DNA of 64,000 nt. Source: Tribonema minus (taxonomy: Eukaryota > Sar > Xanthophyceae > Tribonematales > Tribonemataceae). The DNA lies in NCBI GenBank assembly GCA_017506865.1, contig JAFCMP010000024.1:682001-746000 (forward strand), read 5' to 3'. Below are positions 19,934-64,000 of the stretch, in pieces; within the stretch, counting starts at the first letter, position 1; each line of letters opens with the position of its first letter. Position numbers and translations under genes: made by a program. The notes beneath the pieces were generated by a model, which saw only the letters and a program-made list of their open reading frames with translations, was not told the DNA's origin and ran no database searches.

Positions 19934-22900
19934 CTACACGCCGCGCCCCGGCGGCGACGAGTTGCCCGCTGACGCCGGGTCAAAGTCTGGGTCGTCCCTG
20001 CGAGCACACGCACAGGAGAGCCGCGTTAGCGCCGCGTGACAAATTACAGAGGCGCACGCGAATGTTCAAGGGCATGCTCTGAAACGTACACGACAGGCTG
20101 TGGCGTGTCATGAGAGTTCGCTTGCTCTGGCGGAGTGTGTGCAGCGGTAAAACATTGGTGCGCATGACAGCCCTGCCCGCTCCCTCAGAGCTCGTTTCAG
20201 ATGAGTGTAGCGGCCGCAATGTGTGCTTGCTGCAACGCCGCTCAGCGCAGCGATGCAAGTAAGACTCTGGCAGTTCAGTGGTGCCGCGTCACGCTACGCT
20301 CCATGCACTCACAGCGCGAAGTGAGGTGCGCCTGGTGAACTTCAAGTGCAAACCTCGCGAGCTACGGCGTTGGGAGCGACGTGCCACTCCAGCGTGTTGA
20401 TGTTCCCCTCCACCAAATACAACGACGACACGTCTGGTTTGGTGGCGTACCAAAGTGCGGCAACAAGCAACACGCTCAAAGCTGTGCAGATCTATGCATC
20501 ACCACACGTGGTGCAGCAGGAGACTGCAAGCGTCCAGATGGAGGGCTTTGGCCACCACTCTTGTATGTGAACTCACAGCACAACGCAGCGCTGGAGTGAT
20601 GCAACGACAACAAGCTGCGGTGAATCTCAAGCAACAACAAAAACGCAGCGCCGGACCCATCTTGAAACGACGACAAGCTGCCATGACCAACAAGCGATTC
20701 GCGGCGCTCTGATGCGCACTCGACGAGCGCACGCGCAGCGGCGGCGGCAGCCAATGCTGGCGTGACCAACGCACCTTACCTACCTGCGCGACTCCTTCTG
20801 CGCCTGCTCCGCCTCGCGCGCGGCGCGCCGGCCTGCGACGCCCTGCGCAGCAGCGTTCAGCAGAGCAGCGAAAACGACGCCAGCATGTGAGACGCCGCGC
20901 AGCACGCGTGTCTGTACAAGGACAAGGACGCGCAGGTTGCGGGCGCCGGCGCGGCTGCACGGGCGTTGCGATGAGCTGATGGACAAAGGCACGACATGCG
21001 TCTGGCTTGGTCACACATGGTGCGCACGTGAATTGCCGGCCGACAGCCGCAATGCCGCCGTGGCACAGCACGACGCATTCCTCTGCTCCGCATCGCCCCA
21101 CCAGTGCCTCAGGAGCCTTTGCTTGGGAGGGGGAGGGTGGGGTCATTTGCGTCAGGCGTAAGGCATGAGATGCTGCGTTCAAGCACAGCGCGAGCGCAAA
21201 GCGCGCAGCGCGCCGCGCTCGTTCGCTCACCTCCCCCTTGGGGGGAAGATCATTCATGGCATGCGGCATGATGATGCTGCCTTGGCACAGAGCGTGCGAG
21301 CGCGTATGCAGCGCGCCGCTCTCGCGTTTCGCTCACCCACCCCTTGGGGGGAAAGGGGAGGAGATCATTCACAACATGCGGCATAACGATGCTGCTTTCA
21401 GACGCAAGCGCGAGCGCGCAGCGCAGCGCAGAGCAGCGCTCGCGTGTTCGCTCACCCGCCCCTTCCCCGCCTTGAGCGCCTTGAACGCGACCATGACGAC
21501 GCTCATGTTGTCGCGGCTGCCGCGCGCGAGGCACGTGTCTATGAGCTCCTCGCACGCGAGCCCGACGCGCGCCTCGCCGTCCGCAAAGATCTCCATCGCG
21601 CAGCGCTGGCAGTCCTGCGCGAGAGCGGGCAATAGGCGAGCGAGATACACAGAACGATCCCCAGAGTCAGTGCGATCTACTGTAATGAAGCGCCAGTGGC
21701 TGAAGTGCGCTCTCCGCGCTGCGAATGCCGCTGGGAGGCGCACACAAGGATCTCCATCGCGCACGCAAAGATTGAGCGACCGTCACAGCGCGCGGCGATC
21801 TGCGGCAGCGCAAGCGAAGTTCAACACAGCCCTGCAGTGAATGCCGCGCGAGGACAGGGCGGCGATCAGCGCGCCGCACGCGGCGCTGCGTGCTGCACGG
21901 CGCGGACGCTGCAGCTGCACGTGCAATAATGGACGCTGCTCTGCCGCACGCGGTTAGACTGCCGCCTGTTGTGCCGCCTGTTGACCCCCGCTCACCCCCC
22001 CTCCCCCCGATTCCTCGCGCACGGGCGCCGACGGCGTGTCGTAGGCTGCGCCTCAGCGCTCGACGCGCGCGCTCGTACTACTATGCATGACAAGCTCTCG
22101 CATGCGCTCATCGGTGAGTGCGCACGCGCCACGGGCGCAGCGCCAATACGCACTGCAGTTGAGGCGCGCTGCATGTGACAGGGTAGGGGGGGGGGGGGGG
22201 CTGGACGGATGCATCGCCACCGCCGCCTGTCACGACAACAAGCGCGCATTGGGCGATCGCCGCGCACAACTCACGCGCGCATCGCACGCCCGCCACTACT
22301 CACGTCGTTGTTCATGACGTCCCACACGCCGTCGCAGCAGAGCAGCAGGAGCTCGTCGCCGGGCGTCCGCCGGTACACCAGCGTGTCCGGCACGCACGTG
22401 ACCTGCGCGCACGGGGGGAGGGGGGGGGAGGGGGGGGGGGGGCATGCGTGAGCAGCGTCCTCGTGTGGTGGCGATGGAGCGCAGAGAGCCCGCTGTAGAT
22501 GCGTTTGCGCCGTCGCGAGCGCGGCGTGGCGTCACGTGCATCAGGCGCCGCCGAGGCACCGTGCGCAGCGATTAGCACGCAACGGCCCTCCAGCGCCGTC
22601 TGCAGTAGTAGACGCGGGACGGAAGCACGCTGTGAGGGATCCTGGCACGCACTGCTGCGCAGCAGTGCTCACCAACAGCGCGCATGCACATAAATCCTCT
22701 GCGCATCACGCCGCGAACGCGCGCCGATATCGCAGGGAACGGCCGCGCAGCAGCCTTGCACACACAAACGCTGGCGCTTGACATGCAGCACTGGCAGCGC
22801 TCGACATGACGCGCAGCGCGCACACGACAGCAGCGCTGCTGCACCAGTGGGTGGAGGAGCGGGAGCAGCAGTTCTCGACGCCGCGCACATCTCCCGCTTC

Positions 22901-25900
22901 ACGCGCGGCGCTCTGCGCAAGGCACGCGCAAGTCGGCAGCGCGCTATGAGGCAAGTAGGAACAAGCATAGCAGCGTTGTCTACATACTATGCGCCATAAC
23001 GATGCCCCCTGCACGATGCAATCGAGCCAGCACGAGCTGCGCGGCACTGTGCGCAAGCGGCGGCAGCGCTCACAACGACAAGCGGATAGTGCCAGACTCA
23101 GCGCGCCGTGCTGCACCATGCACTATATACATGTGCCATGGTGCACCACTCACCGGGGTGGGAAATCAAATATTGAGACTGGGCCTCGGCCATGCAGCTC
23201 ATTGGTGCTTTGCGAGCAACGCTCCGCACGAGGCGTGCGCGAGTCGGCAACACGCTCTGAGGTAAGTAGGTTTGACCGCCGCGGCGCTACTTGCGGATAT
23301 ATAGTGCGATGCCCCTGCACGATGCACGCGGGCCAGCGCGAGCTCTATGCGCAGCGCTCGGCGCTGTGGTTGTGCGCAAGCGGCGGCAGCGCTCACTGCG
23401 GTGAGCAGCCTCAGCGCGCCGCCCCGCCCGCGGAGACCACCATGCACTGCAAACGTGCGCCGTGGCGCACCACGCTGCAGGGTGGGAAATTCAAGATGAG
23501 GCGTGGGCGTGGGCCTAGCAGTTCATCGGCGCGTTGCGCTGCTGCCTGGCACAGCGCGCCCTGGGGCTAGGGTGAGCATAACCTTTGAGTCTCAATTTAG
23601 AGCAACGGCTGGAATTGGGGTGTGCTCACCAAAGGGGGGGGTAGGCCCCTAGTCGCCGATTAGAGCTAGTGTTGGGATTGGGGTGTTCTCATCAGGTCTG
23701 GGTGTAGACTAGGGGGTCGTCCCCACCTTGCCAGGTGTTGGGGTTATCATTAGGGCTGAAGGTAAGCGGCTGCGTGTCCCTTGCAGTTCCCCGGCGGCAG
23801 GTCGCTGCTCTTGTACTGGATGTCGTGGAGCGTGCGGCTCACGGATGGGGGTAGACTAGGGGGGTGCGCTCCCCTTGCGGGGGGTAGACTAGGGGGGTGC
23901 GCTCCCCTTGCAGGAGGTAGACTAGGGTGGTGCGCTCACCTTGCAGTTGCGCGGCAGCAGGTCTCTGCTCTTGTACTGGAAGTCGCCGAGCGCGCGGCTG
24001 ACGGCGAGGTCGCCGTCGACGCGCCGCATGCTCACATGCCCGCCCGCCGCCTCTATGCGCGCCTTCTCCTCCGCGTCGTACGGCTTGTGGTCCTGTGCGT
24101 CACACGACGAGAACAGCGCGAGCACCAGTGAGTTGGCGAGCGCTTGCGCTGTGCGACTTCCCATAACCGCAACGCCGGCATACTCAAGTGCATGCTCTGG
24201 TGTGCTGAGCCATGTGCATTGCTCTGAAGGTGACACCACATAGGTAGCTGGCCATCGGTACCTCGGTCGCCGCCGCGACGCGCCCCCCGCTGCAGATGAG
24301 TCGCGCGCGAGTCACCGCCATAATTACACATGGTGGCGTCATATATGATCAGATGATAGCTGTCATGACAACACATAGCTGGCCATCAGTACCTCAGTTG
24401 CCGCCGCGACGCGCCCCCCGCTGCAGATGATCGCGCGCGAGTCGCCCGCGTGCGCCACCACAATGTGGTTGGGCGTGATCACAGCGCTCAGCGCCGTGCA
24501 CCCCGACCGTTCGCTCGCCGACTGCGCCTCTGGGACCTGCGGCGGCAGCAGCGGCACCGGCGGCAGCAGCGTCAGCAGCAGCGGCAGCAGCAGCGTTACG
24601 AATGCGCGGCTTCGCATCTGAGCTGGAGCACGGATGCACAATGTTTTTGCAGCGGCAGATGGCGCGTTATCTCCCTGCCGAAGCGTGCTACCTGTGAAGG
24701 TGGGGTCGTCTGGTGAGCGGTGTGACTACAGGCGTGACCACTGGCGCGCCAGCTTTCGCCTGCGACGCCCGCAGCGCTGCGCGAACACGATGGTGAGAGC
24801 ATCGAGCGTTGCGCTGCCGCCGCCTTGCCCCTCAGAGCTCTGGCGTGGCGCTGAGCACTGGGCAGGCTGAGGTTAAAGCGCGCGAGAAGCTGATGCTACG
24901 CAGGTGCATGCGACGACTGCGCCGAAGCAGCGGTGTCTGGCCTATATGAGCGGTTGCAACGGCAACTGGTGATAGAGATTGAATACCAGATCATGCATTT
25001 GGGCATTGAGCAGCGGCGAGCTAATCGCGAGATCTTAGTGCTGTGTGGGTACCGCAAGATGCATGAATGCGCCGCCAGCCGCCGCTATTTACGGGGTGGC
25101 CGCCACGGCCACCGCTATTTACGGGTTCAGCCTTCTACAGCTCTTGCGCCTGCCTTTTTGAAGATCAATGAGACCAAGAAAGAAGGCACTCAACGCCTCC
25201 TCGGCGTGATTTGCCATAGAGACCAGCACCGCCTGTCCCATGCGTCACCACAACAACACGATGCGGATGCCAGTGTCCAAGTGGTGCGTAACTGCTGACA
25301 CCAGTGGGCGTGCCCGCAGCAACTTTAAGTTGCCTGCCACCTGAGCAATGTTTCCTCAGCGCAAGCGCCACGACACACAAACCAGTACATGCACTGAGGC
25401 CCTTGCAAAGGCTGGCGTAACGTTGCGCGCGCCGGCGCCCGAGGCGCAACGCGCGGTAGCAGGCGAGAGCGGCAGGCGGCTCTACCCGTCACAGTTACAC
25501 CAACATACCCTACATGCCTATCCAGCTGATGATGATGATGCTCAGCTTAACCCTAATTGCGTACACTTATGGTATCACATACCTTTTGTAACGCCTCGTC
25601 TATGTCAAGGTACGCCGTGTACAGCGCCTTGCACAGGAGCTCCACGTTGCGCCCGCCCGCCGGCTGCGCGACGTACGCCTCGTAGTCCGGCGTCGCGCGT
25701 AAAAACCTGCCTCCCCAGCGGTTGCGGCACGATGACGCGATTAGAGAGGAATCGGTGCGCAGCAGACGGCATGTGAAGCGAGCATGCAAGCACACACAAC
25801 TGCCGACTGATGCTGCGGATGGACGAGCTCCCACGACAGAGAGGGCACAGCCCTGCATGGATACGCTGGGTACCTAAGGTGTTGTGCCTTTCTGCTCCTC

Positions 25901-28234: not shown

Positions 28235-28715
28235 ACTGGGGCCGCTTGGCGGAGAAGCGAGAGGCGCTAGGCCGAATTCCCTCGATAAGTACGTCTGCAA
28301 GCCACTCCTTGTCTAGCAGATAAGTCCCAGCGACGACAGGTGTCTCTCCTTCACAAAACTCTGCACGCCGTTTCTGGGCAAAAACGCAAACCCTGACCCT
28401 AGGGTTAACGCCTAGTGGACGTAAGTTGCATGATTCAGGTATACTTACCCAGCACACGTACATATGCATTGTCATGATGCGTTTTTAATGTGGTCTTAGC
28501 ACTGCTGTTGCCTTTCACTCGACAACGTCGCTTTGCTTCTCTGGCTTGCAGCAGTTTGTTGATGTGTTGTCGTTGACCATTGGCAAATAGGGGCAGACCC
28601 AGACAGGCGCATGCTGGTTCCAGCACGTCCGGCCTTCCTGACGGCAGGTGGGTCTCAGCTTGGTATTTCTTGATGCCGTGCGTGCCACAGTAACTCCCAC
28701 CTGTACGGCGCTACA
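28235..28715 (-). CDS. Candidate exons of an unidentified minus-strand gene
   Basis: Two coding-looking segments lie directly upstream of the PP2C start. One is 28232-28373, with acceptor TTTTTGCCCAG and donor GTAAGAAC. It is open as KRRAEFCEGETPVVAG, then YLLDKEWLADVLIEGIR, then SAKRPQYG. The other is 28449 to about 28700, donor GTAAGTAT, open as HGIKKYQAETHLPSG, then LPLFANGQRQHINKLLQARE, then NAYVRVLG. The phases do not join across the short intron between them with the obvious acceptor, and the first segment also ends in the ATG used for PP2C. They could be exons of a separate gene, a 5' UTR that happens to be open, or remnants. No family recognised. Confidence 0.38.
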
Positions 28716-29463
28716 CAATGGGTCACACAGGTGACACAGGCAGGTTCAGTCGGAGAATTGACCCCAATGACAATGACCACAAGATGCACAGAGGCCGCCG
28801 CCTTGTAGCCCAAACCGAAACTGATGCCGGATGCGTGCTCGCGAAAGCCGCTGCACTAGAGAGCGAGAGCTACCGTCCTTTCACATGCATTCAAACATCA
28901 GTGCTCGATATGTGAGACCACACAATAGCAGAGGTGGATGACAGCTGCAAGCAGTGGATCTGCCCCCTTCTTTTTTTCCTGCTAGTGCCACGTGTTAACC
29001 CTAAGCTCCCTTTTAGGGTGCGTGATGTCGCAGTTTAAAAAATTTGCAGACTGACTGTGCAAAGTCTGCAGCTCTTGTCGTGCCTTTTTTCTGACTCCGG
29101 CACCAGCGGTGGTAAATCATCGACGGCAAGAGCAAGTAGCAGTGCAAGTGAGAACATCTGTGGCCAAAGATCAGCAGCCAGGAGCTCAGTGCGCCACACG
29201 ACCCCCTGGTCTTCTTCATGTGTCTTTGCTAGACTGCGGAAAGCGCATATACTTTGGAAGCACACACAGGCGACCTTACATTCTGTGTCCGAGCCACTAG
29301 CGTGCAACTATCGGAGTGTTCGAGCATGGCATTCGCCAGCGACCTGGCACGGTCTATGGTATCTCAGGCATCCATGCAGCCGCGCAGTGGGTCCCGACTT
29401 CGAAGGCAGCACAGGTGCTTCAGACATTGTAGCAGCAGCGGTGGGCGACAAGCGGCACTGGGG
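28716..29463. other. Unassigned region with open frames on both strands
   Basis: A 65-codon plus-strand frame (28718-28915) and a minus-strand frame at about 29035-29240 (with VVWRTELLAADLWPQMFSL and a hydrophobic LALLLALAV) are both open, but neither has a recognisable domain or convincing splice partners. The region should also hold the promoter of the SRPBCC gene that starts at 29464. Confidence 0.3.
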
Positions 29464-32400: not shown

Positions 32401-32903
32401 TTGCCCATTGTGGATCGCTTCAAACGGTTTACCAGTGCTTGCGCCCCGGAACTGATGCTGACTCCCTTGTGTGCATGGCTGTTCACCATGTTCCTATGGG
32501 CACTCACCGCCGCCACCACCTCTATTGAACCCAGCTTTGCGTTGCTTCACGCCTGAAGCGCAATTACTCACCAGCCCCCCCTCCCCCTTGCCCCCCGCAC
32601 CCCCCTTCCCGCCCCCAGGCGCGCGGCATCTGGTACGTGGAGAGGCCCCCCGACTGCCGCCCCGGGCACTGCCGCATCTGGCTCGTTGCGAGCCTCGTCG
32701 TGAGCGGCCTCGTGCCGGGGTTCCTCGTGGACTACGCGGCCGCGCGAGCGCTGCCGCGTGCGAGCACGTGGCTCAAGCCCACGTGCGAGCGCGTGCAGCG
32801 GTCGCACGAGCGCGAGGGGCGGCGCCACCTGCTCAACGCTGTCGCGGCGACGGCGGCCGCGGCGGCTCAGCAGCAGCAGCAGCAGCAGCAGCGGGAGGGC
32901 TAG
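29464..32903 (+). CDS. SRPBCC/START-domain protein (COQ10/polyketide-cyclase-like), signal peptide
   Basis: Four exons, all phase 0: 29464-29538, 29659-30186, 31955-32143 and 32619-32903, giving 358 residues. Exon 1 is exactly a signal peptide (MKAAVVLTVLLAISLSCVRV, then EASLR). Residues 26-70 are rich in Arg, Thr, Ser and Ala with an AFTAAAP patch, like the transit-peptide part of a bipartite plastid presequence. The SRPBCC fold spans residues ~150-335: GLVVVDVRADAATAMEVLQSF, YGDMIDTVREARIL, FLISRFKLRVRVLLK, EFELDPD, IWYVERPPD, IWLVASLVVSGLVP, ALPRASTWLKP. This family binds lipids, quinones or other hydrophobic ligands in a helix-grip pocket; the ligand here is unknown. The C-terminus ends in a Q-run. 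The YGDMI and NDARG junctions reproduce continuous family sequence, which confirms the introns. Plastid location is an inference. Confidence 0.85.
31032..31090 (+). repeat. Duplicated 5' edge of SRPBCC exon 3 (pseudo-exon)
   Basis: Within intron 2, CAG followed by a segment encoding DMISTIKEARILAEAQ mirrors the true exon 3 start DMIDTVREARILGQR at 31955. Similarity includes the acceptor CAG and about 45 exon bases, then breaks down, and a stop follows at about 31101. Confidence 0.85.
32349..32433 (+). repeat. 43-bp tandem duplication in SRPBCC intron 3
   Basis: GTGACACGCTTGCCCATTGT begins an identical 42-base block at 32349 and again at 32392, separated by a single G. The copies are identical, so the event is recent. 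Confidence 0.95.
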
Positions 32904-38228: not shown

Positions 38229-39420
38229 ATGGTATGGTATGACTTGTACTGCTGCGGAGAGCACGTTCTTCAGGGACTCCCTGGTGTTAAAGTGCACGGC
38301 AGCGTGTCTCGCTGGTTTAGGTGCTGGTGCATGTTGGTCCGGAGGGGCTTCCGAGTATCATACACAAGGCTGATGGGATATTTTGTCAGTGGACATGACA
38401 ACGGAGGCGAACGAATGTAGACAACTTTTTGAGCACACGACCTTGGAGCCTCAAGGTTGCAGCTGCATCAAAATGTACGAGATACTGCTGCTGCTGTTGA
38501 TGCACGTGCTGGCAGCTCAGTGCGAGGCATGGGTACACCATCCTTGAAGGCAGCAGCTGCTGCTCGGCGGGCATTGGTTTGCGTGGTTCAGCGCATGGTG
38601 CCTGCCACTTGTGCTCACCCAGAGTATGATTGTGCGTCATATATGAAACTTGACTGCTGGTGCTGTGTGTTTACTCTCTATAAAAAACTTCAATGCCGGG
38701 ACTTCTGTATAGGGATCGGCGGCGCTCTGGCGGCGTGCGCCCACGCTTTGGCGGGCGGTGGTGCGGACGCGACGCGCGCCTACGCTCCTTGGCGGGCCGC
38801 GTCACGCTGGTGGCGTGCGCCCACGCTCTTTTGGCGCTGCGGCGTGATGGTTTGATGGCATGGTATGAATTGTACTGCTGTGAAGAGCATGTGTCTCTAG
38901 GGACTTCCTGTGTTCAAAGTGCACGGCAGCCTGTCTCGCTGGTTTAGGTGCTGGTGAGTGTTGGTCCGGTGGGCTGCCAAATTCACAAGGCTGATGGAAT
39001 ATTTTGTCAGTGAACATAACAACGGGGGCGATCGAATGTAGACAACTTTGTGAGCGGACGACCTTAGAGCCTCAAGGTTGCAATTGCATCGAATGTACGA
39101 GATACTGCTGCTGCTGTTGATGCACGTGGAAGCTCAGTGCGAGGCATGGGTACACCATCCTCGCTGCTCTGCGGGCATTGGTGTGCGTGGTTCAGCGCAT
39201 GGTGCCTGCCACTTGTGCTCACCCAGATTGTGACTGTGCGTCATGTGAGAAACTGTACTGTGCTGGTGTGTTTACCCTCTATGACTTTTGCACCACACTT
39301 CAATGCCGGGACTTCTGTTGGAGGTTAACCAACTGGGGATAGGCGGCGCTCTGGCGGCGTGCGCCCACGCTTTGGCGGGCGGCGCTGCTGATGCGACGCG
39401 CGCCTAGGCTCCTTGGGGGC
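38229..39420 (+). repeat. ~600-bp tandem direct duplication
   Basis: Copy 1 (38229 to about 38800) and copy 2 (38857 to about 39420) share, in order: ATGGTATGGTATGACTTGTA/ATGGCATGGTATGAATTGTA, CTCGCTGGTTTAGGTGCTGG, ATTTTGTCAGTG, GAATGTAGACAACTTT, GAGCCTCAAGGTTGCA, TACGAGATACTGCTGCTGCT, GTGCGAGGCATGGGTACACC, TGGTTCAGCGCATGGTGCCT and CTTCAATGCCGGGACTTCTG, ending in GGCGGCGTGCGCCCACGCTT. Identity is high, with small indels. No conserved open frame, so this is probably a non-coding duplicated element. Confidence 0.92.
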
Positions 39421-39849
39421 CACGCGCTTCGGTTCAAAATGCAAACTTAAACTGCAACTTGAAGAACTGGCCAGGCCGTGGGGCGGAGGCGCAGGTTCTA
39501 GGTCTCAAGCAGGTAATTGCAAAGTAACGATAAGTGTCTGAAGTAAGAGACAACACTACGTTGCTGCCTGGCCGCATGGCCTTCAGGGCGGCCCGGATGT
39601 GATTCACTGTGCGCAAAAAACAGACGTTTGGCACTTCGCTAAACCTATGTGATCAGCGGCGCGGGCTGCGCTGGCCTATCTATGCAATGGAAGGAAGGAA
39701 CCGCAATTGCACTCGCTGCTTTGGTGATTCGGAGTGTGCCACAGATTTCTCAGATTGTCTCCTACTTTAGCACACTGTGAAGAACCACAGACTCGAAATT
39801 CACCAAGTCATTCCTCAACGCCTGACACCGATGCTGTGACTGCATTGCA

Positions 39850-44425: not shown

Positions 44426-44435
44426 TAGTGTGCCA

Positions 44436-44514
44436 GTCACAGCTTTGACACCACGCCGGGATTTGAGGTTTTGAGGTCACAGCTTTGACACCACGCCGGG
44501 ATTTGAGGTTTGAG
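44436..44514 (+). repeat. 40-bp tandem duplication
   Basis: GTCACAGCTTTGACACCACG starts two consecutive near-identical units, 44436-44475 and 44476-44514, both ending GGGATTTGAGGTTT. They differ by one T near the unit end. Confidence 0.95.
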
Positions 44515-44623
44515 GGCCCTTCGCTTCATCACTTCGCTTCATCCTTCCAGGTGACGGTGATGCTCAGCACTTAGGATGCCCTGAAGAGGGACAAAAGCAA
44601 GTGCTGTGTGTAGGGCGAGGTCA

Positions 44624-52200: not shown

Positions 52201-55200
52201 CAAGTGGCTGGCGGCACCTGCGCGGTAGACGCGCGCACGCGGGGGCGCACAGCCCGTTCGGCACGCACCCAACCCTACACCCCACCCTAACCCTAACTCT
52301 ACTAATGCGCCCCCGCGGGAGACGACACATGCGCATCATGGGTGGCCGTCTTCGTCTGCATGCAAGCGCGCGTTGTCCAAGCCGCGACGCCTCAGAGTGC
52401 CGTTGCGCGCCCGATAGCGCAGCGTTGAACGTCTACGACTGCTGCAGCGTGTTGTGGTCGCTCGCGCTGCTGCGGGTCACCTCGCGACGCGCTTGAGTAC
52501 TCATTTGCGGTGTCGGGTGCTGCCGTCGGCCGAGCGCCTGCACGGCGTGAGTACTCGTGGAAACGAATTAAAAGATCGTAGAGCTCCAGGTGACACGGTG
52601 CGGTCAGCCGCGAGTGCCTTCCGCCGATAACCGTGACCGCCGCCGCTGGAGCAATTGGCCACGAGTCTCTCATCCGCCGCATCGCAAACTGCCGTTGGTT
52701 GACCACTGCAGGTCTTCGCGCGCGGCCGGACGGGCTTCCAGGCGACCAGGAAGCTGCACGCACCCGTCAACTCTGTCATCGCGGGCCGGTACCAGGTCAG
52801 GCGCGCCATCCTACACCTACATACCTACCCCCAGCATGCAACGCGCGCAGCAGCTTGGATGTGAACCTCAAGTTGAAGTGAAGCGCGTACCACTCGCAGG
52901 CATGCACGCCTGTCGGCACGCAGCCAGTGTCGTCCGGTGGCCTCACTGGCGAGCGCAGCTGCGCAGCGCGGCATTGCCTGTGTGCTGCAGTTCTGTAGCC
53001 CATGTCGCCGCGTTTTCGTGTCACCACAACGCCTGCCACACCAGTCTCATCGTGACACGATATCGCGCGGAGCCTCTGACGCTCCGCCGCTGACTCTCGT
53101 TCGCTCGCGGCACATGCATACCGCCAGGTGTGCCGCCACATCGACTCGGCGGTCTCAAGCGACGCGCTGCACTGCGTGGACCTGCACGAAGGCGACCGAC
53201 CCGTCTGCTTGAAGGTAGGTCGCGCACTCGGAAGTATGTATGTACACGGTATGCTTGACCCCTAACCCTAACCCTAAGCCACTGCGTGGATCTGCACGAG
53301 GGCGACCGGCCCGTCTGCCTGAACAGCCTGCACCTGCATGAGGACGACCGGCCCGTCTGCCTGAAGGTAGGTAGTGCACTGGAGGTATGTATACAACCGC
53401 TGGGCCCTAATCCTAGCCCTAAAGCAGGCTCAGCACAGAATGTCTATTTCTTAATGAGTGAGGTGGTGTGTGTATGTTTGCTGGACTAAACCAGCGTCAC
53501 TCAGCACTGTGCCTATGGCCTGCAAGAGGGCGACCGGCCCGTCTGCTTGAAGGTAGGTAGTAGCGCACTTGAGGTATGTATACATAGGCGGAGCACCCAG
53601 CTGTTGGGCTCAATCATGGAGGCCGCGCGCAACCCTAACCCTGACACTTTTGCAGCGGGCGGGTCGCAAGAGATGCGTAAAAGAGCCGCGAGTGCACGCC
53701 GCCGCTGCTTTAAAGCTCGGCTGCAGGAGAGGCCCCCTGCGGGCAACGCACTTCGCGTGCGCGGTCAATGCACGCGGAAACCCCCCACGCGGAGGCGTTC
53801 AGTCCTTGACCCCGGTCCCCGCGGCCGTGCCGAATGCATGCAGAGAGCCAGTTCTCAAGAAGCGTTCACTCACTGACCCCAGCCACCTGCGCTTGTGCGC
53901 TGCGGCCCTGCCGTGCGCGCAGGTGGTGAAGAACGACAAGGACCTCTTCGACCAGTCGCTCGACGAGATCCAGCTGCTGCGCTACATGGGCGCGCGCGGC
54001 GACGCGGAGCGTCACCACTTCCTGGCCATGCACGACTGCTTCTACTACAGGGTGAGGCGGCGAGCTTTAGATGGCGACGGGGTGGTGCGGACGTCGCCGT
54101 ACCGTGTGTACTTCCATGCGAATTTGCATGAGTTTGCAGACATTGAAAATCATCGATTGCAGTATGCATGTCAACGCTGCACGTGTACTCTACGCACGTC
54201 CGCACCACAGGCCGGTAACACCCCCTCCGTCGACTTCACCGCGACCCCCATGGTGCGCAGCAACCCAGAAGCACAGAAATGCTTGCGTTGGGTGTGCCTG
54301 CCCCAAGCTGCTTCACCCCCCTCCCAGGCGCAGTCGCACGGAACCTGCACCTCCTAGCGGCACTCGCACCGGCTGTAGAGGATGGATGTGCTGGCGCTGA
54401 CCTCTGCATCGTGCGCCCCTTCCCCCGTCCCCCCCTCATTCCCCTGCGCGCAGGAGCACCTGTTCATCGTCAGCGAGCTCCTCGGCGAGAACCTGTACCA
54501 GTTCTCGCAGCGGCTCAAGGAGGGAGGGCTGCCGCCGTACTTCACCCCCGTGCGCGTGCGCGGCATTATGCACCAGTGCCTGGAGGCCCTCTCCTTCATG
54601 AACAGGCTGTCCCTCATGCACTGCGACGTCAAGGTAAGCGAGCGCCCCCCCCCCCCCCCCCCTTCCAGCCCTCTCGTCCCTGACGCACTGTGACATGAAC
54701 TGAGAGAGAGTGCCCCCCCCCCCCCCCTCTCCTCGCTCCTGGTGCATTGTGACGCCCCTGATGCGTTGTGACGCCAACTGAGAGAGACCCCCCGCCACCC
54801 CTCCTCGCCCCTGATGCACTGTGATATCAACTGAGAGCCCCCCCCTCCCCCCGCGACTCGTCCTGCGGCGTACGGCAGCGACATGCGACGGCTGTGTCTA
54901 TGCATGCGCGCATGTGGACTCTGCCCCTTGCGCACAAGCTCGGCGGCGCGCACCGTGCTAATGACATTCCAGCCCCCACGCTTCACGAGAAGCCATTTGA
55001 AACGGGGCTGTCCCCCAGCGCGCTGCAGTGTGATGCCCGTGTCGCTGCGATGTGGAAATGAGGTGCCAAGGGTCGCCAGTTAGGTGGCTTCTCGAAAGCG
55101 GCGCGAGTCACACGTGCGCACCTTCGAGTGCAGCATGCCTGTGCCCTGACGACGATTCATTCGCAGCCCCCCCCCCTCCCTCCCCGCCCCCCCCGCTTCG

Positions 55201-57118
55201 CTGCCCCCATATTCCATGCTGGACGCCGTCACAAACCCACCCCCCCCCCCGCCTCTCCCCGTTCGCCTGCAGCCGGAGAACATTGCGATGCGGGACTACG
55301 CGCAGGGGCGCGTCAAGCTCATCGATTTCGGCTCGGCGTGCTTCACGAGCGACCGCGTCGCGGCGTACATGCAGAGCCGCTTCTACCGCGCGCCGGAGGT
55401 CCTGCTGGGCCTGCCGCACTTCGGCCCCGGCGTCGACACGTGGAGCCTTGGCGCCGTTCTGGCGGAGCTGCTCACGGGGTGAGGGCCAGATGAGAATGAG
55501 CGTCGCTGTTGGTTTCCGGTAGTCTGCGCTGCGTGGCGCGCTGTATTGATTATTCACAGTAGCACTTTGCCCCGGCGTCGACACGTGGAGCCTCGGCGCC
55601 GTACTGGCAGAGCTGCTCACGGGGTGAGGGATGATCATGAGCGTTGCCGTTGGAATCCGGTAGTCTTTGCTGCATGGCGCACTGTATTGATTCTTACAAG
55701 GTAGCACTTTAGTACACGCGTGAGCCAGAGCGGCGCGGCGCTGGCGGAGCTGCTCACGGGGTGAGGGCCAGATGAGAATGAGTGTCGCTGTTGGTTCCTT
55801 CGGCCGCTGTGACTTCAACCCATCAACTTCACCTGTTGCAGTTTCAGGCATGCGCGCAGCCGCCGATCTCCAACAGACACGCTAACTCACCTACCTGCAT
55901 GCCCGGCATCGCGGTGGCGTTTGCTGCGTGGCGCAACGTATGGGGTTATTGAAGCGGCGCTATGCGCGCGCGTGAAAGAGAGCGGCGTCGTGCTGGCGGA
56001 GCTGCTTACGCGGTGAGGGCCCCGCAAGGGGGATGAGCGCCGCTGTTGGTAACTTCAACTCATCACCTTCGCCTGTTTCTCAACTTCAGGCACGCCTGAT
56101 GCGCGCAGGTCGCCACCAGACACGCAACCTCCCCCCCCTGCACCTAGTTGCCTGCATGCTCGACGTCACCATGCATCTGAGCACTGCTCCGCAGGGGAGA
56201 CTCGCGAGGTGTGCATCGCGCTGGTCTTTTCTGCGTGGCTGCTGCTGCCTGCTGCTGCTGCTGCTTGTGCCTGCTGCCTTGCACATTTTCTCACTGCTGC
56301 TGCTGCTGCTGTATCTGCGCGCACCACCCCCCACCCCCTCTCAGGAACGTTCTCTTCCAGAGCGACACGTGCGCCGCGCTGCTCGCGCGCATCACCGCCG
56401 TCGCCGGCGCCGTGCCGCCGGACATGGTCGTCGCGGGGCGCGAGTCGCCGCGCTACTACACGTCCGCAGGCGCGCTCTATGAGCGCGAGGGCGCGGGGAC
56501 GTCACACGTGCAGTTGGTGAGTCCCGGCGCCACACCTCTTGCAGTATGGTGTCAACAAGGATCATGGCGAGTGCTCGGCGGCGGCAGAGTGCAGTGTGCG
56601 CGAGGGCGCCCGCATGCGCTGGCGCTGCGCAAGCTCTGCGCTCGTGGCATCGGCCGCGTGGCGCGCCGACGCGCCCCGGCCGAAGCTGCTATCGAAGCCG
56701 CGCAGGCACCTGTGACAATAAGATGCGCCGCACTTTGTCCTGCGCAGCGGCACACACCACATGCGCTCGAGGTGCACCCTGCGCTTTGTGCGACATTCCC
56801 TGTCCTTCACGCGGGGGAACGCGACGTCACTCGCCGCTGCTGCCGTGGCACACTGCAGAGACGAACTGACTGCTCTCCACCCCCCGCTCAACGGCGCGTC
56901 TCTCTCCGCGCGCGCAGCTGCGCCCGAAGCGCACGCACCTGCGCGCGCGCCTGCGCCAGGACGACCCCCTCCTCCTGGACTTTGCCGCGCTGCTGCTGCG
57001 CCCGGACCCCTGCGAGCGCCCCTTCGCGTGCGAGGCGCTCGCGCACCCGTGGCTGCACGCGAGCGGCGCCGCCGACGGCGACGGCGGCGCGGCGGACGCG
57101 GCGGCAGCGCAGCAGTGA
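46229..57118 (+). CDS. DYRK-family protein kinase (plant DYRKP type)
   Basis: Exons: about 46229-46738, 47686-47745, 48478-48675, 49248-49573, 50185-50497, 50572-50718, 51801-51935, 52712-52795, 53128-53214, 53923-54051, 54454-54633, 55273-55478, 56345-56516 and 56918-57118 (TGA). The long N-terminus is acidic and Ser/Gly-rich. A DYRK homology box (SFALRVVFARGRTGFQ) precedes NSVIAGRYQV. The kinase domain shows VCLKVVKNDKDLFDQSLDEI (ATP lysine), SELLGENLYQF, the catalytic loop HCDVKPENI (Asp of HxD present), LIDFGSACF and YMQSRFYRAPEVLLGLP, then WSLGAVLAELLTGNVLFQSD. The activation-loop tyrosine before MQSR is kept; the first Tyr of YxY is Ala. DYRKs autophosphorylate on that tyrosine and then act on Ser/Thr. 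Algal relatives are known in starch and oil control. The frame changes between 50497 and 50572, explained here by a 74-bp intron. The 5' end is unresolved. Confidence 0.9.
48676..48800 (+). repeat. Exon-edge duplication with telomere-like repeat (DYRK intron 3)
   Basis: The exon end GCCATGGGCCAGCAG|GTAGGGTTTGCGGAG (boundary 48675) recurs at about 48752-48787 as GGCATGGACCAGCAG|GTAGGGTATTGCGGAG. Between them is GTAAGGGTTAGGGTTAGGGT (48701-48720). The 5' splice site is intact in both copies. Confidence 0.9.
53215..53585 (+). repeat. Triple exon-edge duplication with CCCTAA motifs (DYRK intron 8)
   Basis: The end of exon 53128-53214 (GACCGACCCGTCTGCTTGAAG|GTAGGT) is repeated at about 53280-53324 (GCCCGTCTGCCTGAAC, donor lost), 53325-53390 (GTCTGCCTGAAG|GTAGGTAG) and 53518-53585 (GTCTGCTTGAAG|GTAGGTAG). 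Each copy except the first is followed by a GAGGTATGTATACA-like intron start, as in the original. CCCTAACCCTAACCCTAA lies at 53260-53277 and degenerate CCCTAA units at 53404-53421. Confidence 0.92.
55479..56045 (+). repeat. Triple exon-edge duplication (DYRK intron 11)
   Basis: The end of exon 55273-55478 (GAGCTGCTCACGG plus GGTGAGGG) recurs at about 55569-55630 (including GGCGTCGACACGTGGAGCCT), 55735-55798 and 55988-56045. Copies retain GAGCTGCTCACGGGGTGAGGG or a near match, and parts of the following intron (GATGAGAATGAG, GTCGCTGTTGGT). Unit spacing is about 150-250 bp. Confidence 0.92.
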
Positions 57119-58466
57119 CGCGCGCGCATTTACTTTTTTCCACGCGCGCGCGGCTGGCGGTGGTGCCGGCGCCGCCGCCTCGGCGCGACGCCCGGATGTG
57201 TGTGTTCCGGGCTGCCGCTGTATCAGTAGTTGGGGTTTAGGGTTACGTTTAGAGATACTACGCTGTGCATTCGCGCCCAACGCGCTGCGCCCGGCTGACG
57301 GCGCGCCAGTGGTGCGTGCGCGCCTTCATCCTAGATGTTGTCCGTCCTCCGCGGGAGCTGCGCCTTCCGGGGGGGCGGTGTGCTCTAGTCCTTCGCAGCG
57401 CGCGCCCGCGTGCGCGCTCGCTTCCAACCGACACAGACTACGACGACACCACACCTCACACCACATCCCAGCAGAGACACGCACGCTGCGCGCGGCGCTC
57501 CGCAGCAGCAGCAGCAGCGGCGGCGGCAGCCGCGCAGTGTCAGCGGCGCGAGCAGACCCCCTACCGGACCCCCCACTGCCCCTCGTGCAGGCCCAAGTCC
57601 AAGTGATCTGTTTACCTCTGATGCCTGTCCTCAAACAGCGCGCGCGCCGTCGGATTTGTTGTTGCGTCCCAGAGAAGCGGCGGGGGTCAGGGGCGCCCCC
57701 CTTCCCCCCCGACCCTTCTACCCCCCACCCTTGCGCTCTGCGGCAGGGCCGGGCTTGCACGTGACCTCCTCTATTATTTGTTCAACGCTGCCAAGTGGTT
57801 CCGTGCGGCGCGCGCGCTGGCTCACAGACGGGCCGCGCGCGCCCCCTGCCCACGAGCAGCCCCCCCCCCCCCCCCCCGCAGCCTCCTGCGACCGCGCCAA
57901 TCCTCCATGGCAGACTGGCCACCCTGCCACTCTCGTGCGCGCGCGACTGAGTCCCCCCTGTTTCGCTGCCTCCGCACACGTCATGCCTGTAAGACTGATA
58001 TGCATACGTGGAAGTGCCGCTGGTACGTCCCCGGGGGGGCGGCACGCTGACCCCCCCACCTCCTTTACCGCCGCTTTAGTTAATTTTGAAACATGAAAAC
58101 GACACAACAGATATATTTTGCATTTTGTTGTCTCTTGACATGTTTGAAATTGCCAGGGTTGGCGGCGAGGCCCAGCCACTAGTCGTGCTTTTGACAAAGG
58201 CCCTGCATGCTTGTGTAGGCACCTGCTTCCGACAAGGCGTTGCGTGCTTGTTCACTTGCGTGGTGTGAATTTGTGGCCAGTGCAGCTGCAGCATGTGAGG
58301 GCTTCTCCCGCACCGTTGGCGCCACGACTGAGCTGAGCTTGACTAGTGTCTGATCAGATTTTAAGTTCAAGTTCAACCTGACAACGAGGAAAGTTCCAGG
58401 AACGAAGGAACGAGGTGATGACGCTGGGATTGAATAGGTAGTTGCGACACACACTCTCCTTGTGGC
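57119..58466. other. Intergenic between the DYRK and DGAT2 genes
   Basis: Holds the kinase 3' UTR and the DGAT2 upstream region. TTTAGGGTTACGTTTAG occurs at 57236-57252, a C-run at 57860-57878 and TTCAAGTTCAACCTGA near 58365. No gene seen. Confidence 0.4.
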
Positions 58467-61400
58467 ATGGTGGAGGTACCAAAAGCAGCTGCGGCGCTTG
58501 CGCTGAGGAGCGGAGAGGAATTCAGCATCACCGCACTTGCAGAAGAAGAGCAGCAGCTCAACGTGATCACGCCAAGCACGAGTGCCAACAACTTTGAGCA
58601 CTTGGATGTGAACCTGATCCCTTTCGACAGCACAAGCACGGAGTGCTCCAGTGATGTCGATGCAGATGATCTCCGCTCAGAAGGCAGGCTTAGGAACTGC
58701 AGCTGCCACTGCCTGGAGCCGTCAAAATCGAAGCCTGGCTTCTTCGAGACCTGCCTGGCGATGCTGACGCTGGGCCTCGTATGCGGCTGGTGAGCGAACT
58801 CGACATCTTCTGCGCTGCTTCATCGCAATGTTAACTCATCTCAGCGCGCTGGCCGCGTCCTCCCCAGTAGCGCCATGATGTTATGTGCTGGCAACAGCCC
58901 AGCGCTGCTTTTGGATCCTGCAGTTGCCTCTGCGAATCTTCAGGCAGTCGCCGGTTGGACGGATCTGGGTCCTGCAGAAGTCTGGTACGCTTTGGCGAGG
59001 TTTTTGCACGCTTTGGCGAGGTAAAGCACGTGATAGCACCCAAAACATTTGTAGATGACACTACACAGCTGGCGAGTCATGTTACGGAGATATACGATTC
59101 CGCGTACTAGAAGTACATACCAATCTGTAGAGTTGTCAGCCGATGCCTCTTGTCGGCTTATCCGTCAATGGGGTCCCGGTCGGCTCGGCTACACCGGCTA
59201 GCCGATGCGTGGATATATGAGTCGGCTTTCCACCGGCTTTTGGTCGGCTTAGGAGATTGGACCGGCTTCACGGTGTCGGCAGCGTTTTTTTGATGATCAT
59301 TTCACTCTCCTCGGCTCCTTGCGAGCCTCAGTTTCCACTACTCTGGCACTCATCTGACACTGTAAGGCTGATGCGGTGCCGACGCTGCTCAGGCAGCCAC
59401 CCCCAGAGCATACGTATACGAGCGCGCAGGCACCCACGGTCCCACACTTGGTTCAATTCAGAGTTGAAGTTGGCAAAGCTTTTTGGCTGTACTTACGCCT
59501 TCGCGGCAGTACGTGTGACGAATGCTTTCCGTACTGCATGCTCAGCAGACTGCAGCAACAGCATCAGCTCTGCGCATCTCTGGTGTGTTTGTTGCGTGAG
59601 TCAGAACTGGTGATTCGCGTATATGCAGCATCGTATAGGGAGCGCATGGTCCGTTGCCATCTGTAAGGCACCTAACCGCCTCCTTGGGTGCCTGAAGTCA
59701 CTCCAGCATCTCCTGCCTGCGGCTTGCTGTTTGGCTGCATTGCGCATTTTTCAAGAACAGACGACAAAAAGCCGGGGTATCGATCAGCTGGGCAAACCGG
59801 CTACACCGGCTAGCCGAAGCCGACCGGCTTAGCCGGTGGTCGGCTGACAACTCTACCAATCTGGTGTTGTAGTGCATCGGGTCAGCTTTCTGCACCATTA
59901 CATAGCAACAGCCACCATACCGCTGCAGTCTGCAGCCCCAGCTCCTTCTCCCATCATGCACTGGTCCTGGCACCAGCGGGGCTGAGGCACAGGAGGTGAC
60001 TAGTGCCCGCAGTGGTGATGGCGGCGTGTGCGGCAGCCGTGTTCGATCCGTACAGGGCGCAGGCGAACAACCTGGACAGGAGGGACGGTATGGCCGCGCT
60101 GTACCGTGGCGTGCTCCAGATGGGGCTGTATGGAGGGCCTACAGTGTAGTGGGATTTGCAAGTTCATTTGGGCTTAGTTGAAAGTGTCTCAATGCGCATT
60201 GCCTATGTATACCAATGCACTTGCGCAAGGCGCTGTGCATCTCCAGTTCCAGAGCTGTTGCTGGACAGCGCCGTTGCATCAAGCCCAACAGCGGCAGGTG
60301 ACGCAGAGCTGTGTTGATGATGTTCACCCAGTGGAACAGGCCGTGCGAGGCAGGCACTGCGCCATACCTGCATACCCCATGTCAGATGGCACATCCATGT
60401 GTGCTGCACGTCAACGACCCGAGCCACAGGGCTCTCTTCGCGCGATCAAACTCATTACAACGTCCCACATGACATGCTGCTGCTGCGCTCGCACTGAGCA
60501 CTGCCACCGCCGCGGCTCATCTCCCTCTGCGCAGGTTCTACATGATACTGCTGCTGGAGGCGGCGCTGGTGATACACGCCGTCGCCTGCCAGTGCGTCTG
60601 GAGCGGGTCTATCGCGGCGCTGCTGCTGGCGAGCTGCTGGTTCCCGCTCGACAACAGGTGCGCGCCGCGCGCGTGGCATTTCAGTTTGGGTTAGCGGTAG
60701 GGTTGGACGTATGCACCAATTATCAACTGCAACAGTGGTATCCGCTCGACAACGGGTGCGCCGCGCGCGTGGCAGTTCAGTTTGGGCTAGGGTTAGGGGG
60801 TAGGAGCCAATTCAACTACAACAGTGGCGGTCCAGGCGTACTCTGGTGACCACCATGTCCGTGAGAGGGAACACTAAGTAGTTGCAGGAGCAGCAACGAC
60901 GGAAGCCATGATCCACACCTTGGTGCATATGGCCACGCAGCTTCAAGACGCTCGCATTCAAAGCGACTTTCCATTGTGCTGTTGTGGCCGTCCTTCTGCG
61001 CTGGTCACAGTCGTGCTCCCTTCGTGATTACCTCGTTGCGCACTCTGGAAGTTCAACATCCAGTTTTGATTGACCGAGAGGCTTGAGACCTGACCCACGG
61101 CAACCATCTGAGAGGGGTTATCTGGGTGTGTGTTCCAAATTGGGACGCCTTGGGGCGCACTGCTCCTAGAGCAGATGGGGAAGACATATGCATGGTGGGG
61201 GGGGGATGTGGGGGGGTCTGCTGTCTCAGCACTGTCATTTCTCACCCCTCCAAAGCGCTGGTGCGCACACTCACCTGCAGCTGTCGCATTATCGTCATGT
61301 TCCGTGTTGCAGGTACCCGTGGGAGGCGTTCATACACGGCCCCCTCTTCAAGCTGTGGCGCAGGTGAGCTGAGGGGTATGTAGGGTAGGTTGGTAAGTTC

Positions 61401-64000
61401 GCGTGTGGTACCTCAACAGTGAAGTTTGCGGGGTACAAGTCATGTGTCACAGCCCGTTGTGTCAACGTGTCTCAGCGCGGTATGGCAGCCCTGCAGCGCT
61501 CTGCACTGTGTCCTCAGCGTGTATGTATGAAAACATGAGGGCCGGCATGCTCAACGTCAACTATAGTCCCTGGGCTGTGTGTGGCACCTTGGCCCCGATT
61601 GTGACCGCCGCCTGCTCTGCCTTTGTGTATGTACTCATGTGAACCAGTACGGCATCACATCTATGACCCCGCTTCAGGTTGTCTTGCTGCTGTAGGTAGT
61701 GCGTCAAAGCCGATGTGTTGCGACGTTTGTGTATCATAGAATTTCATGCGTATTGAAGTTGATGCTTGCCTCTATTCGTCACGCAGGTACTTTGACTGGT
61801 CGTGCGAGGTGCATGAGCAGCTGGACCCTAGCAGGCGCTACATGTTCGCCGAGATGCCGCACGGGTGAGCCATGATACATACCGTATGCTTTTTAACCGC
61901 TGCATCACTATCTGGCGCACATACCATAACGACCATCAAGTGCAAGCAAGTATTATGGCGCGGTGATTTTTAATTGCTGCAACACTGGTTTGTGCAGGAT
62001 GCATGGCTCAGTTTAGGCTGCAAGGCTGCAAGTTCGCAGTTCCACACTCCTTGGTAGCAGGCGCTGAATTTGCGCCCATGCTGCACTTTGCCCCGCACAT
62101 CTGTGCACGAGTTGTCCCTTGAAGCCGCTATGTATGCTCGCCTGCTTGCCGGTCGTGAGCTGCTGACCCATGTGCGCCTACCCCTCCACCCCCCTCCCCC
62201 AGTCGCCCCCCCCCCTCTCCCCTGCCCCTGTCGCAAAGCTGCTGCCGCTTCACTATCGCGACATGTCATTCTCACGTCTCGTGCCCCCCCCCCCTCTCCC
62301 CCTCTCATCCCCCCCCCCTTGCCCCCGCTGCCCCCCCCCCCCCCCCTTCAGCGTCATCCCCCTCCCTGCGCTGCTGTCGGCCTCCGTCGTGCGGCACGCA
62401 TTCCCGGGGCTCGGCTACGTCATGGGCGTCGGCGCAGACATCGTGCTGCGCGTGCCCGGCATTCGCCAGCTCTATGGCTGGCTCGGCGTGCGCGCCGCCG
62501 GCCCTAACACGATTCGCCAGATGTATGAGGTGAGAGCTAATGTTAGAGTTAGAGTCAGGCTATTTACGATATCACATGTCGAGGTTGGGGTTCGTGGTTG
62601 GGTAAGGTTGATCGGTCCCAACACTCCAGGGACAGGAATGAAGCTGGGCTGCTCTTGCACGTCACGTGTAGAGGGTCTGACATACAGTAAGTCGGTCCTA
62701 ACACTATCCGCCAGATGTATGAGGTGAGAGGGGGGGCTGAGCAGTGCTAGTAAGGGTTAGGGCCACACTAGGGTTAGTGTAGAACTAGGGTCACTGCTGG
62801 GCTGCGTAGGGTCAGGGTTGAGGTTACGTTTAGGGTCAGAGTTAGGGCAACATCACTGGCATGACGCGAGCCATTTGCGGCTTGACAGCCTGATGTGCTT
62901 GTACAATCAACACACAGACGTGCATGGCTCAATGCCGTGGCGCGGCGCGGCGCTGCGGAATTTGCGGACGCGCGGGGCGTGCAGCAGCAGCGCTCAGCGC
63001 GCGCCACACGTCAGCGCTCAGATGGCTCCTGCTTCTTTCTGTGCGCTGCCGCGGGATGGCATCCACGTGGGCGTTGTTCGCGGGATGGGGTGCGTAAACG
63101 GGGGGGGGGGGGGGGGCAGGCGACATCAGTTGCGAACATTGCTGAAACTGCTGTTTGCAGCAGCAGCAGCGCTCACTGCACGTTCATCGCACGCCACACG
63201 TGCTCAAACCGCTGCTCTCGCTGTGCGCTCGCTGCTGCCTGCAGGATGGCGTCCACGTCGGCGTTGTCGTCGGCGGCATTGCGGAGATGTTCCTCGTGAG
63301 CCGCAAGGAGGAGCGCATCTTCCTGCAGCAGCGCAAGGGCTTCGTGCGCGTCGCCATACGCAACGGCGCCGACATTGTGCCGGTGGTGAGTCACAGTTGA
63401 GGTTTTTTAGGGTTACAGTATGTACGGTTTTGATCGTAGCGACTTCCTGTAGCAGCGCTTGGTGCGCGTCGCCATACGCAACGGCGCCGACATCGTGTAT
63501 GTGGTGAGTCACAGTTGAAGCTGTCTAGACTGCAGCAGCGCAAGGGATTTTTGCGTGTCACCATACGGATTGGCGCGGACATCGTGCCGGTGGTGAGTCA
63601 CAGTTGTTCTAGGGTTGAAGTGGGGTTTGGCGAGGATCATGGCATCATCCTGCAGCAGCTCAAGGGCTTTGTCAAGAACAGCTCAGACATCGTGCACCTT
63701 CAAGAAACTTCTAGCAAATCAAAGCCCCCAATTGCAATCGACGTTGTAAAGTTTATGCATGACATGATGAAAAATCTCACTTGCATGTGCGCATACGCGT
63801 TCCTACCTGCCTAATCGTCTGAGCGTTGACTTGCCGCATGGCGACCATGGCTGACTTCATCCTTCCTTTACCTGTGCCGCGCGCATTTCGGCTGCAGTTC
63901 TTCTTCGGGAGCAGCCTGCTCTTCGACATTGCCGGCGGCAGCGACAGCAACAGCTACCTCATGAAGCTGAGCCGCAAGATGAGGTCCAGTCTCGTGCCTT
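58467..64000 (+). CDS. DGAT2: Diacylglycerol O-acyltransferase type 2, 5' part
   Basis: Seven exons with matching phases: 58467-58789 (ATG), 60535-60657, 61313-61363, 61787-61864, 62352-62529, 63245-63385 and 63898 to beyond 64000. DGAT2 makes triacylglycerol from diacylglycerol and acyl-CoA in the ER/lipid-droplet membrane. The first ~90 residues are soluble and Ser/Glu-rich. A hydrophobic hairpin follows (CLAMLTLGLVCGWFYMILLL and further), then FKLWRRYFDWSCEVHEQLDP, SRRYMFAEMPHG (catalytic His191; HPHG in animals, EPHS in plants), VLRVPGIRQLYGWLGVRAA, VGVVVGGIAEMF, LQQRKGFVRVAIRNGADIVP and FFFGSSLLF, then KLSRKMRSSLVP at the edge. About the last 15-25% of the protein is missing. Intron 1 carries a transposon and later introns carry exon-edge duplications. 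Exon 1 is assigned because its phase and hydrophobic end join perfectly to exon 2. Confidence 0.93.
59128..59855. mobile_element. Non-autonomous hAT-like DNA transposon (MITE)
   Basis: A 728-bp element with perfect 16-bp terminal inverted repeats TAGAGTTGTCAGCCGA (59128-59143, and its complement at 59840-59855). It is flanked by an exact 8-bp target-site duplication CCAATCTG (59120-59127 and 59856-59863). The 8-bp TSD and the TAGAG-type terminus are typical of hAT elements. Subterminal CCGGCT/AGCCGG clusters lie at both ends, as expected for transposase binding sites. No transposase is encoded. It sits in intron 1 of DGAT2. The intact TSD and TIRs suggest a recent insertion. Confidence 0.93.
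60658..60810 (+). repeat. Exon-edge duplication with TTAGGG motifs (DGAT2 intron 2)
   Basis: Exon end CCGCTCGACAACAG|GTGCGCGCCGCGCGCGTGGCA (boundary 60657) is repeated at about 60740-60775 as CCGCTCGACAACGGGTGCGCCGCGCGCGTGGCA. Original and copy are each followed by GTTTGGGTTAGCGGTAGGGTT or GTTTGGGCTAGGGTTAGGG. Confidence 0.92.
62504..62770 (+). repeat. Exon-edge duplication with TTAGGG motifs (DGAT2 intron 5)
   Basis: CCTAACACGATTCGCCAGAT, then GTATGAG|GTGAGAG (real boundary 62529), recurs at 62697-62730 as CCTAACACTATCCGCCAGAT, then GTATGAG|GTGAGAG, followed by TAAGGGTTAGGGCC and ACTAGGGTTAGTG (62752-62778). Confidence 0.92.
62975..63090 (+). repeat. Duplicated acceptor and 5' edge of DGAT2 exon 6
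   Basis: The segment AGCAGCAGCGCTCA...CGCCACACGT...CTGTGCGCTGCCGCGG followed by GATGGCATCCACGTGGGCGT mirrors the end of intron 5 and the exon 6 start (63157 to about 63275, GATGGCGTCCACGTCGGCGT at 63245). The copy lost its AG acceptor (GCGG). Confidence 0.85.
63386..63705 (+). repeat. Triple exon-edge duplication (DGAT2 intron 6)
   Basis: The 3' end of exon 6 with its donor (GACATTGTGCCGGTG|GTGAGTCACAGTTG, boundary 63385) is repeated at about 63450-63516 (ATCGTGTATGTG|GTGAGTCACAGTTG), 63529-63606 (ATCGTGCCGGTG|GTGAGTCACAGTTG) and, truncated, at 63649-63698 (CTGCAGCAGCTCAAGGGCTT to ATCGTGCACC). The second copy keeps an open frame from the CTGCAGCAG on (RKGFLRVTIRIGADIVPV). TTTTAGGGTT (63405) and TTCTAGGGTT (63607) follow the donors. 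Confidence 0.93.

Follow-up and report, generated by a model that had tools for sequence, protein, structure and literature searches.

Recurrent duplication of exon ends with their 5' splice sites in introns of Tribonema minus and its possible origin in break repair

Fill-in and end-joining of staggered breaks reportedly give rise to small tandem duplications, and Schiml 2016 is among the references of PMC8355091. In excerpts of PMC8355091, small tandem duplications are described as the outcome of fill-in at staggered breaks, and a CST-Pol alpha-primase model of fill-in and adjacent nicks is based on insertions in humans and plants. As far as these excerpts go, such duplications are short and direct and have no sequence preference, as is the case for those of Tribonema minus described here, whereas the Tribonema copies are diverged, often multiple, mostly intronic and in excess at intron starts, and the mechanism behind them is one that we infer. 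Intron gain by tandem duplication in potato RdRp, as presented in an excerpt of PMC4974935, likewise crosses an exon-intron boundary; in Tribonema, however, the copy lies within an intron, and no new intron was seen. The insertion of telomere repeats at breaks is described for mammals in an excerpt of PMC2246262, and the interstitial telomeric sequences found there at double-strand breaks are, like the tracts found here, TTAGGG repeats within chromosomes. Unlike those of the excerpt, the Tribonema tracts are mostly intronic and tied to local duplications. Tribonema minus is a xanthophyte, and among the titles listed from an open-licence library, none concerned duplicated exon 3' ends in Xanthophyceae.

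Exon ends that recur in the following intron

The window, i.e. the whole stretch of 64 kb in which the copies were first noticed (C24:682001-746000), was analysed together with the 30 kb flanking it and a 200-kb control (C1:300001-500000), giving a sample of 294 kb from two contigs, or 0.2% of a genome of 158 Mb in 554 contigs. Exons were predicted by a hidden Markov gene finder that was self-trained on the sample. It called 137 exons on one piece and 259 on the other, and for the three genes concerned, PP2C, a kinase and DGAT2, the main calls are consistent with homology. Some copies were called as short exons and therefore only the boundaries of predicted exons of at least 60 nt were used; predicted introns may extend into intergenic sequence. 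Copy-bearing introns came out shorter, not longer, with this gene finder because it splits introns at copies, and this comparison was therefore given no weight for the intron growth suggested in the initial annotation. After splicing by hand, DGAT2 matches Pfam DAGAT and the kinase matches Pfam Pkinase. The kinase shows 100% identity, over the full length of the hand-spliced query, to a protein attributed to Tribonema minus. Homologues of the PP2C query carry PF00481, and DYRK-type kinases are among the named relatives of the kinase (best 120 of 389).

The initial annotation had described nine exon ends that are repeated together with their donor sites, three of them in each of PP2C, the DYRK-like kinase and DGAT2. 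All nine recur with donor-side sequence in their own next intron when the last 75 nt of the exon and 45 nt of intron are aligned to that intron at E <= 0.05 (Table 1). This recurrence is a real feature of the sequence and, as had been stated, it concerns unrelated genes on both strands. The alignments gave 21 copies altogether and one to four per exon, where a copy had to reach the exon part and self-matches, C-runs and one intron-only match were excluded.

Many copies had been said to retain a usable GT donor; by eye, 13 of the 21 copies keep GT, and eight of the nine exons own at least one such copy. Other details of the description needed correction. The 15-60 bases given for the copied exon part do not extend to exon 21456-21614, which contributes only about 9 nt. 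Nor are the copies centred on the splice junction, as the exon share of a copy ranges from 0.08 to 0.82 and is mostly below 0.4. Three cases are weaker than first described, namely exon 54454-54633 of the kinase and exons 23940-24148 and 21456-21614 of PP2C; for exon 23940-24148, the sole GT sits in a weak copy (E 0.006).

Table 1. Duplicated exon ends, their intronic copies and associated repeats in the window
Feature	Position	Strand	Basis or details
PP2C exon DCQRCAM...KAGKGR, donor region repeated downstream	21456..21614	-	gene finder, translation, homologues
Tandem array, period ~115	21162..21464	-	copies 21297-21345 and 21191-21239: ~9 exon nt, GT, intron start
PP2C exon, 3' end 23940	23940..24148	-	gene finder call, translation, homologues
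Copy of 65 nt from the 3' end of exon 23940-24148, GT lost (86% identity)	23779..23844	-	alignment
33-bp minisatellite, 3 copies, from end of exon 23940-24148 and intron start	23847..23946	-	alignment
PP2C exon VPEAQSAS...GGRVAAATE, 3' end 24393	24393..24536	-	start by eye; gene finder start 24622
Copy: 54 nt of exon with GT donor and start of intron, frameshifted (88% identity)	24231..24316	-	alignment
Kinase exon VCRHID...DRPVCLK	53128..53214	+	gene finder, homology
Telomere-like CCCTAACCCTAACCCTAA tract, spacer directly before first copy	53260..53277	+	sequence
Three copies of end of exon 53128-53214	53280..53581	+	53280-53323 (no donor), 53319-53392 (GT), 53519-53581 (GT)
Kinase exon EHLFIV...MHCDVK	54454..54633	+	gene finder, homology
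Three weak copies (70-79% identity) of end of exon 54454-54633, no GT left	54676..54852	+	alignment
Kinase exon PENIAM...LAELLTG	55273..55478	+	gene finder, homology
Three copies, GTGAGG donor in all	55562..56050	+	55562-55664, 55732-55796, 55984-56050
DGAT2 exon FYMILL...WFPLDN	60535..60657	+	gene finder, homology
Tandem copy, adjacent (offset 98), of 20 nt of exon with donor and start of intron	60736..60827	+	alignment
DGAT2 exon VIPLPAL...TIRQMYE	62352..62529	+	gene finder, homology
Copy: 31 nt of exon with GT and a few nt of intron (92% identity)	62693..62730	+	alignment
DGAT2 exon DGVHVG...GADIVPV	63245..63385	+	gene finder, homology
Copies 63443-63518 and 63530-63606 (both GTGAGT), 63642-63672 (no donor)	63443..63672	+	alignment
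Part of first DGAT2 copy, read in P0001 as in-frame 17-aa exon QRLVRVAIRNGADIVYV	63453..63503	+	protein model

Local direct duplications across the sample

Self-BLAST of the sample identified 191 direct pairs with a spacing of up to 1.5 kb, 166 of them at bits >= 50. One order-2 Markov shuffle of the 294 kb yielded none, in agreement with the earlier claim that random duplication is exceeded. The same 294 kb contained 13 inverted pairs no more than 1.5 kb apart, and direct pairs at distances of 1.5-24 kb numbered 26. Orientation and locality are those expected of tandem duplication by break repair (166 direct vs 13 inverted pairs). Half of the duplications have an offset of about 117-326 bp, and the gap between the copies of the 166 pairs is at most 10 nt in 51, 11-100 nt in 44 and more than 100 nt in 71. 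Clusters are found mainly in introns or at exon edges (73; 0.42 per kb of intron), with six in mainly intergenic sequence (0.14 per kb). The window is no special place, as by the strict criterion given below 6 of 53 donors are crossed inside it and 23 of 166 outside; the exon-edge copies are part of a wider process of duplication in introns that reaches beyond it.

As the best reading of these data, and a fairly probable one, we propose that error-prone repair of breaks makes local tandem duplications and that selection spares the copies that lie past the first donor. Staggered breaks or nearby nicks in DNA would have their breakpoints anywhere, and fill-in of overhangs followed by joining would leave a tandem duplication; at times, telomere repeats would be added where the DNA had broken. 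Duplications inside an exon would break the frame and be lost by selection, whereas one over a 5' splice site would be tolerated, with the first donor still in use and the copy left in the intron; where a 3' splice site is duplicated, the redundant copy would fall upstream. The copies would then decay neutrally. Against this stands that only the 51 pairs with the smallest gaps are adjacent, so that a clean tandem origin would require most pairs to have been eroded or to have received insertions afterwards. No repair gene was found, as a six-frame search for the Ku family was without a match, but this search ignored introns and was therefore a weak test.

A junction was counted as crossed when a copy extended 12 nt or more to both sides of it. 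In the full sample, this was so for 31 of the 221 donors and 20 of the 228 acceptors, and without TE-like stretches for 29 of 219 and 20 of 227. Even if nothing but ordinary repair is at work, about one donor in eight of the sample (29/219) is crossed by a duplication. Outside the window, 23 of 166 donors (P=0.02 vs mid-intron) and 17 of 173 acceptors (P=0.22) were crossed; for points in mid-intron and in exon interiors, the shares were 7.6% and 1.7%. The comparison of exon edges with exon interiors, on which the initial annotation had made its proposal depend, came out in favour of the edges (13.9% of donors vs 1.7% of interior points, outside the window). Donors and acceptors did not differ in the 200-kb control (18/149 and 16/154); on the contig of the window, the counts were 11/72 and 4/74.

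Sliding the repeats at random gave 15.2 crossed donors where 29 were seen, a number reached in none of 500 slides, and 15.9 crossed acceptors where 20 were seen (P=0.14); as the slides also land on exons and intergenic sequence, they understate the expectation for introns only. Exon interiors are depleted of duplications, with 1382 nt covered vs 4051 nt expected from sliding and none of 400 slides as low (control, 895 vs 3075; window contig, 487 vs 1019, P=0.14). The coverage profile of the 221 donors stands at 0.165 at the donor, remains at 0.14-0.16 over the first 150 nt of the intron and is about 0.045 at 70-100 nt inside the exon, and for the 228 acceptors it is about 0.114 at the acceptor and 0.065 at 30 nt inside the exon; the copies extend onward into introns past the junction. 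The partner of a donor copy lies downstream in 28 of 31 cases and upstream in five, and that of an acceptor copy upstream in 15 of 20 and downstream in six.

Two alternatives concern the nature of the repeats themselves. An assembly artefact, for which no supporting point was found, is hardly credible, as mean identity to the source is 0.915 in exon parts and 0.878 in intron parts, and this divergence of about 8.5% and 12%, made up of substitutions and indels, is unlike joining or polishing errors. Insertion of an introner or transposon, in which a mobile element would bring the repeated sequence, might be suggested by the frequency of local repeats in introns and by two control stretches that look TE-like by eye, yet every copy matches its own exon end, and for a 401-nt array in the kinase, the one unit searched, no place in the genome other than its own locus gave a match, in a search that passes over simple repeats and the most frequent words. 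We consider this origin very unlikely. The two TE-like stretches (C1:315900-317200 and C1:441000-443000) consist of near-identical local repeats (94-100%) and were left out of later counts.

Intron starts and telomere repeats

In 142 introns of at least 450 nt, exon-masked coverage by duplications was 0.137 in the first 150 nt vs 0.069 in mid-intron (p=0.008), and 0.090 in the last 150 nt (p=0.24); the first and last 150 nt did not differ significantly (p=0.13). The 105 introns of 450-1500 nt outside the window gave 0.142, 0.079 and 0.096 for first, middle and last parts (p=0.037, first vs middle). In the 200-kb control alone, the masked excess had p=0.085, and unmasked pairs at least 80% identical had p=0.009. 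The window alone showed no intron-start pattern (first 0.088, middle 0.048, last 0.111; n=25). Outside the window, the share of junctions crossed by pairs at least 80% identical was 9.0% for donors (15/166, P=0.001) and 5.2% for acceptors (9/173, P=0.04) vs 2.0% for mid-intron points. This difference is partly a matter of detection bias, as a pair with one exonic copy stays similar longer.

This excess speaks against the reading preferred here, as selection on splice sites alone predicts none at intron starts over mid-introns. It may come from breaks linked to transcription or splicing, or from introns that the gene finder has over-extended. A mutational process of the former kind, in which R-loops, nicks or a stalled polymerase past the 5' splice site concentrate duplications at intron starts, remains a candidate because of the excess, which is two-fold after masking. 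The density of clusters in introns, a sense-strand excess of G in the first 150 nt (GC skew +0.064 vs -0.014 in mid-intron) and the frequency of TTAGGG tracts in the first fifth of introns point the same way. However, control donors and acceptors are alike, the masked excess is weak in the control alone and absent in the window, first and last 150 nt are not significantly apart, and the gene finder may stretch introns into intergenic DNA, so that we regard such a process as possible but rather doubtful. In a tentative and equally doubtful extension, the first 100-150 nt of introns would be a duplication hotspot, where transcription- or splicing-linked breaks past the 5' splice site undergo fill-in and telomerase-like addition and exon ends with their donors are recopied, occasionally to become new exons. 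If the intron-start excess holds genome-wide, Tribonema would offer a natural record of break sites in transcribed genes and could serve to test the seeding of duplications by splicing or R-loops.

Telomere repeats accompany the duplications. The 294 kb contain 75 TTAGGG tracts, of which 70 are intronic, five intergenic and none coding, and five control hexamers gave 3-26. Duplication spans, which make up 13.3% of intron sequence, hold 21 of the 70 intronic tracts (p=2e-4), and TTAGGG occurs in 9 of 84 spacers between copies vs 3.3 expected (P=0.007). By fifths of the intron, the tracts number 23, 15, 8, 14 and 10. Their unit is the species' telomere repeat, TTAGGG, as expected: a 30-base TTAGGG array had 2303 forward and 3123 reverse matches in the genome (overlaps counted apart) and a reversed control had none; the matches listed include arrays with which contigs C2 and C3 begin, as well as internal ones on C1 and C2.

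Divergence and splicing of the copies

Exon copies differ from their source by 6.7, 5.6 and 13.4% at codon positions 1, 2 and 3 (intron parts, about 12%), and an unconstrained copy beside a constrained exon is expected to differ by about 6, 6 and 12%. The copies thus diverge like neutral DNA, as expected. Among third positions, 30 of 57 sites with A or T in the exon differ, as do 55 of 542 with G or C (positions 1-2, 78/1210). Because A/T third bases differ far more than G/C, the exon has changed at silent sites after copying, and the third-position signal stems in part from this change. Between copies, the differences were 0.116, 0.077 and 0.228 at the three positions (24 non-independent copy pairs), and in trios the copy-only changes were also biased to third positions. 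We take this bias to reflect copying from the exon at different times; neutral decay alone would not predict it. Coding selection on the copies, which the third-position differences had first suggested, was largely, if not wholly, set aside, as the rates are those of a copy drifting freely next to an exon under constraint, and the bias between copies is compatible with repeated copying from the exon.

The initial annotation had also suggested that the copies form selected arrays of alternative 5' splice sites, to which cassette exons may be added. At first sight, this is supported by the GT kept in 40 of 42 copies of the sample, by the third-position bias among copies and in trios, by the gene finder, which calls some copies exons, and by the DGAT2 model P0001, which takes one copy as an in-frame exon. 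However, retention of GT in about 88% (37/42) is expected without selection from an identity of about 0.94 at positions 1-2, and the third-base bias also fits copying at different times from a silently changing exon. Use of a copy donor leads to a stop in 40 of 44 cases, with two in frame and stop-free, and the lengths added are spread evenly over the three frames (15, 15 and 14).

P0152, a transcript-derived sequence of EukProt, is 98% identical to the PP2C query over 83% of it, and its small differences mean that it stems from another strain or species than the sequenced one. If both intronic copies of PP2C are removed, the junctions AAATE/DHKPYD and RNCK/VTCVPD are expected, and P0152 joins AAATE to DHKPYD and RNCK to VTCVPD; the copies at 24231..24316 and 23779..23844 are both missing from it. 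P0152 fits the first donors at the two testable duplicated exons (2/2), and its own source genome may or may not carry the copies. The kinase model P0032 contains no copy. First-donor use is suggested by this one transcript-derived protein and this one protein model. P0001 has 17 extra residues from the copy and a second insertion at 63170-63244, before exon 63245; both insertions are absent from three stramenopile homologues (Phaeothamnion, Pylaiella and Ectocarpus), and we think that they are annotation errors. Selected arrays were not supported, and we judge them, like cassette exons, improbable. Duplicated donors can mislead gene annotation, perhaps as in P0001, and they supply raw material for new exons and introns.

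It was also considered whether the copies are ready-made exons, with units bounded by AG and GT. This seemed to hold for the copies at 60736, 55562 and 63443, yet by eye the bases upstream of the copies follow no such rule.

Further observations concern PP2C and other parts of the window. P0152 is without exon 21456-21614, whose donor region is repeated, and goes on with residues of exon 19940-19997. A diverged direct repeat of about 71% identity and 2-kb offset occupies 8349-8998 and 10372-11040, and exons at 5181-5953, 13783-15912 and 16755-18875 presumably belong, judged by eye from their resemblance, to GTP cyclohydrolase II, Naf1 and SepSecS (selenocysteine synthesis). A local duplication of 0.6 kb with 82% identity is found at 38229-38801 and 38855-39424, and the translated exons of the gene around it resemble what we take to be Armadillo repeats.
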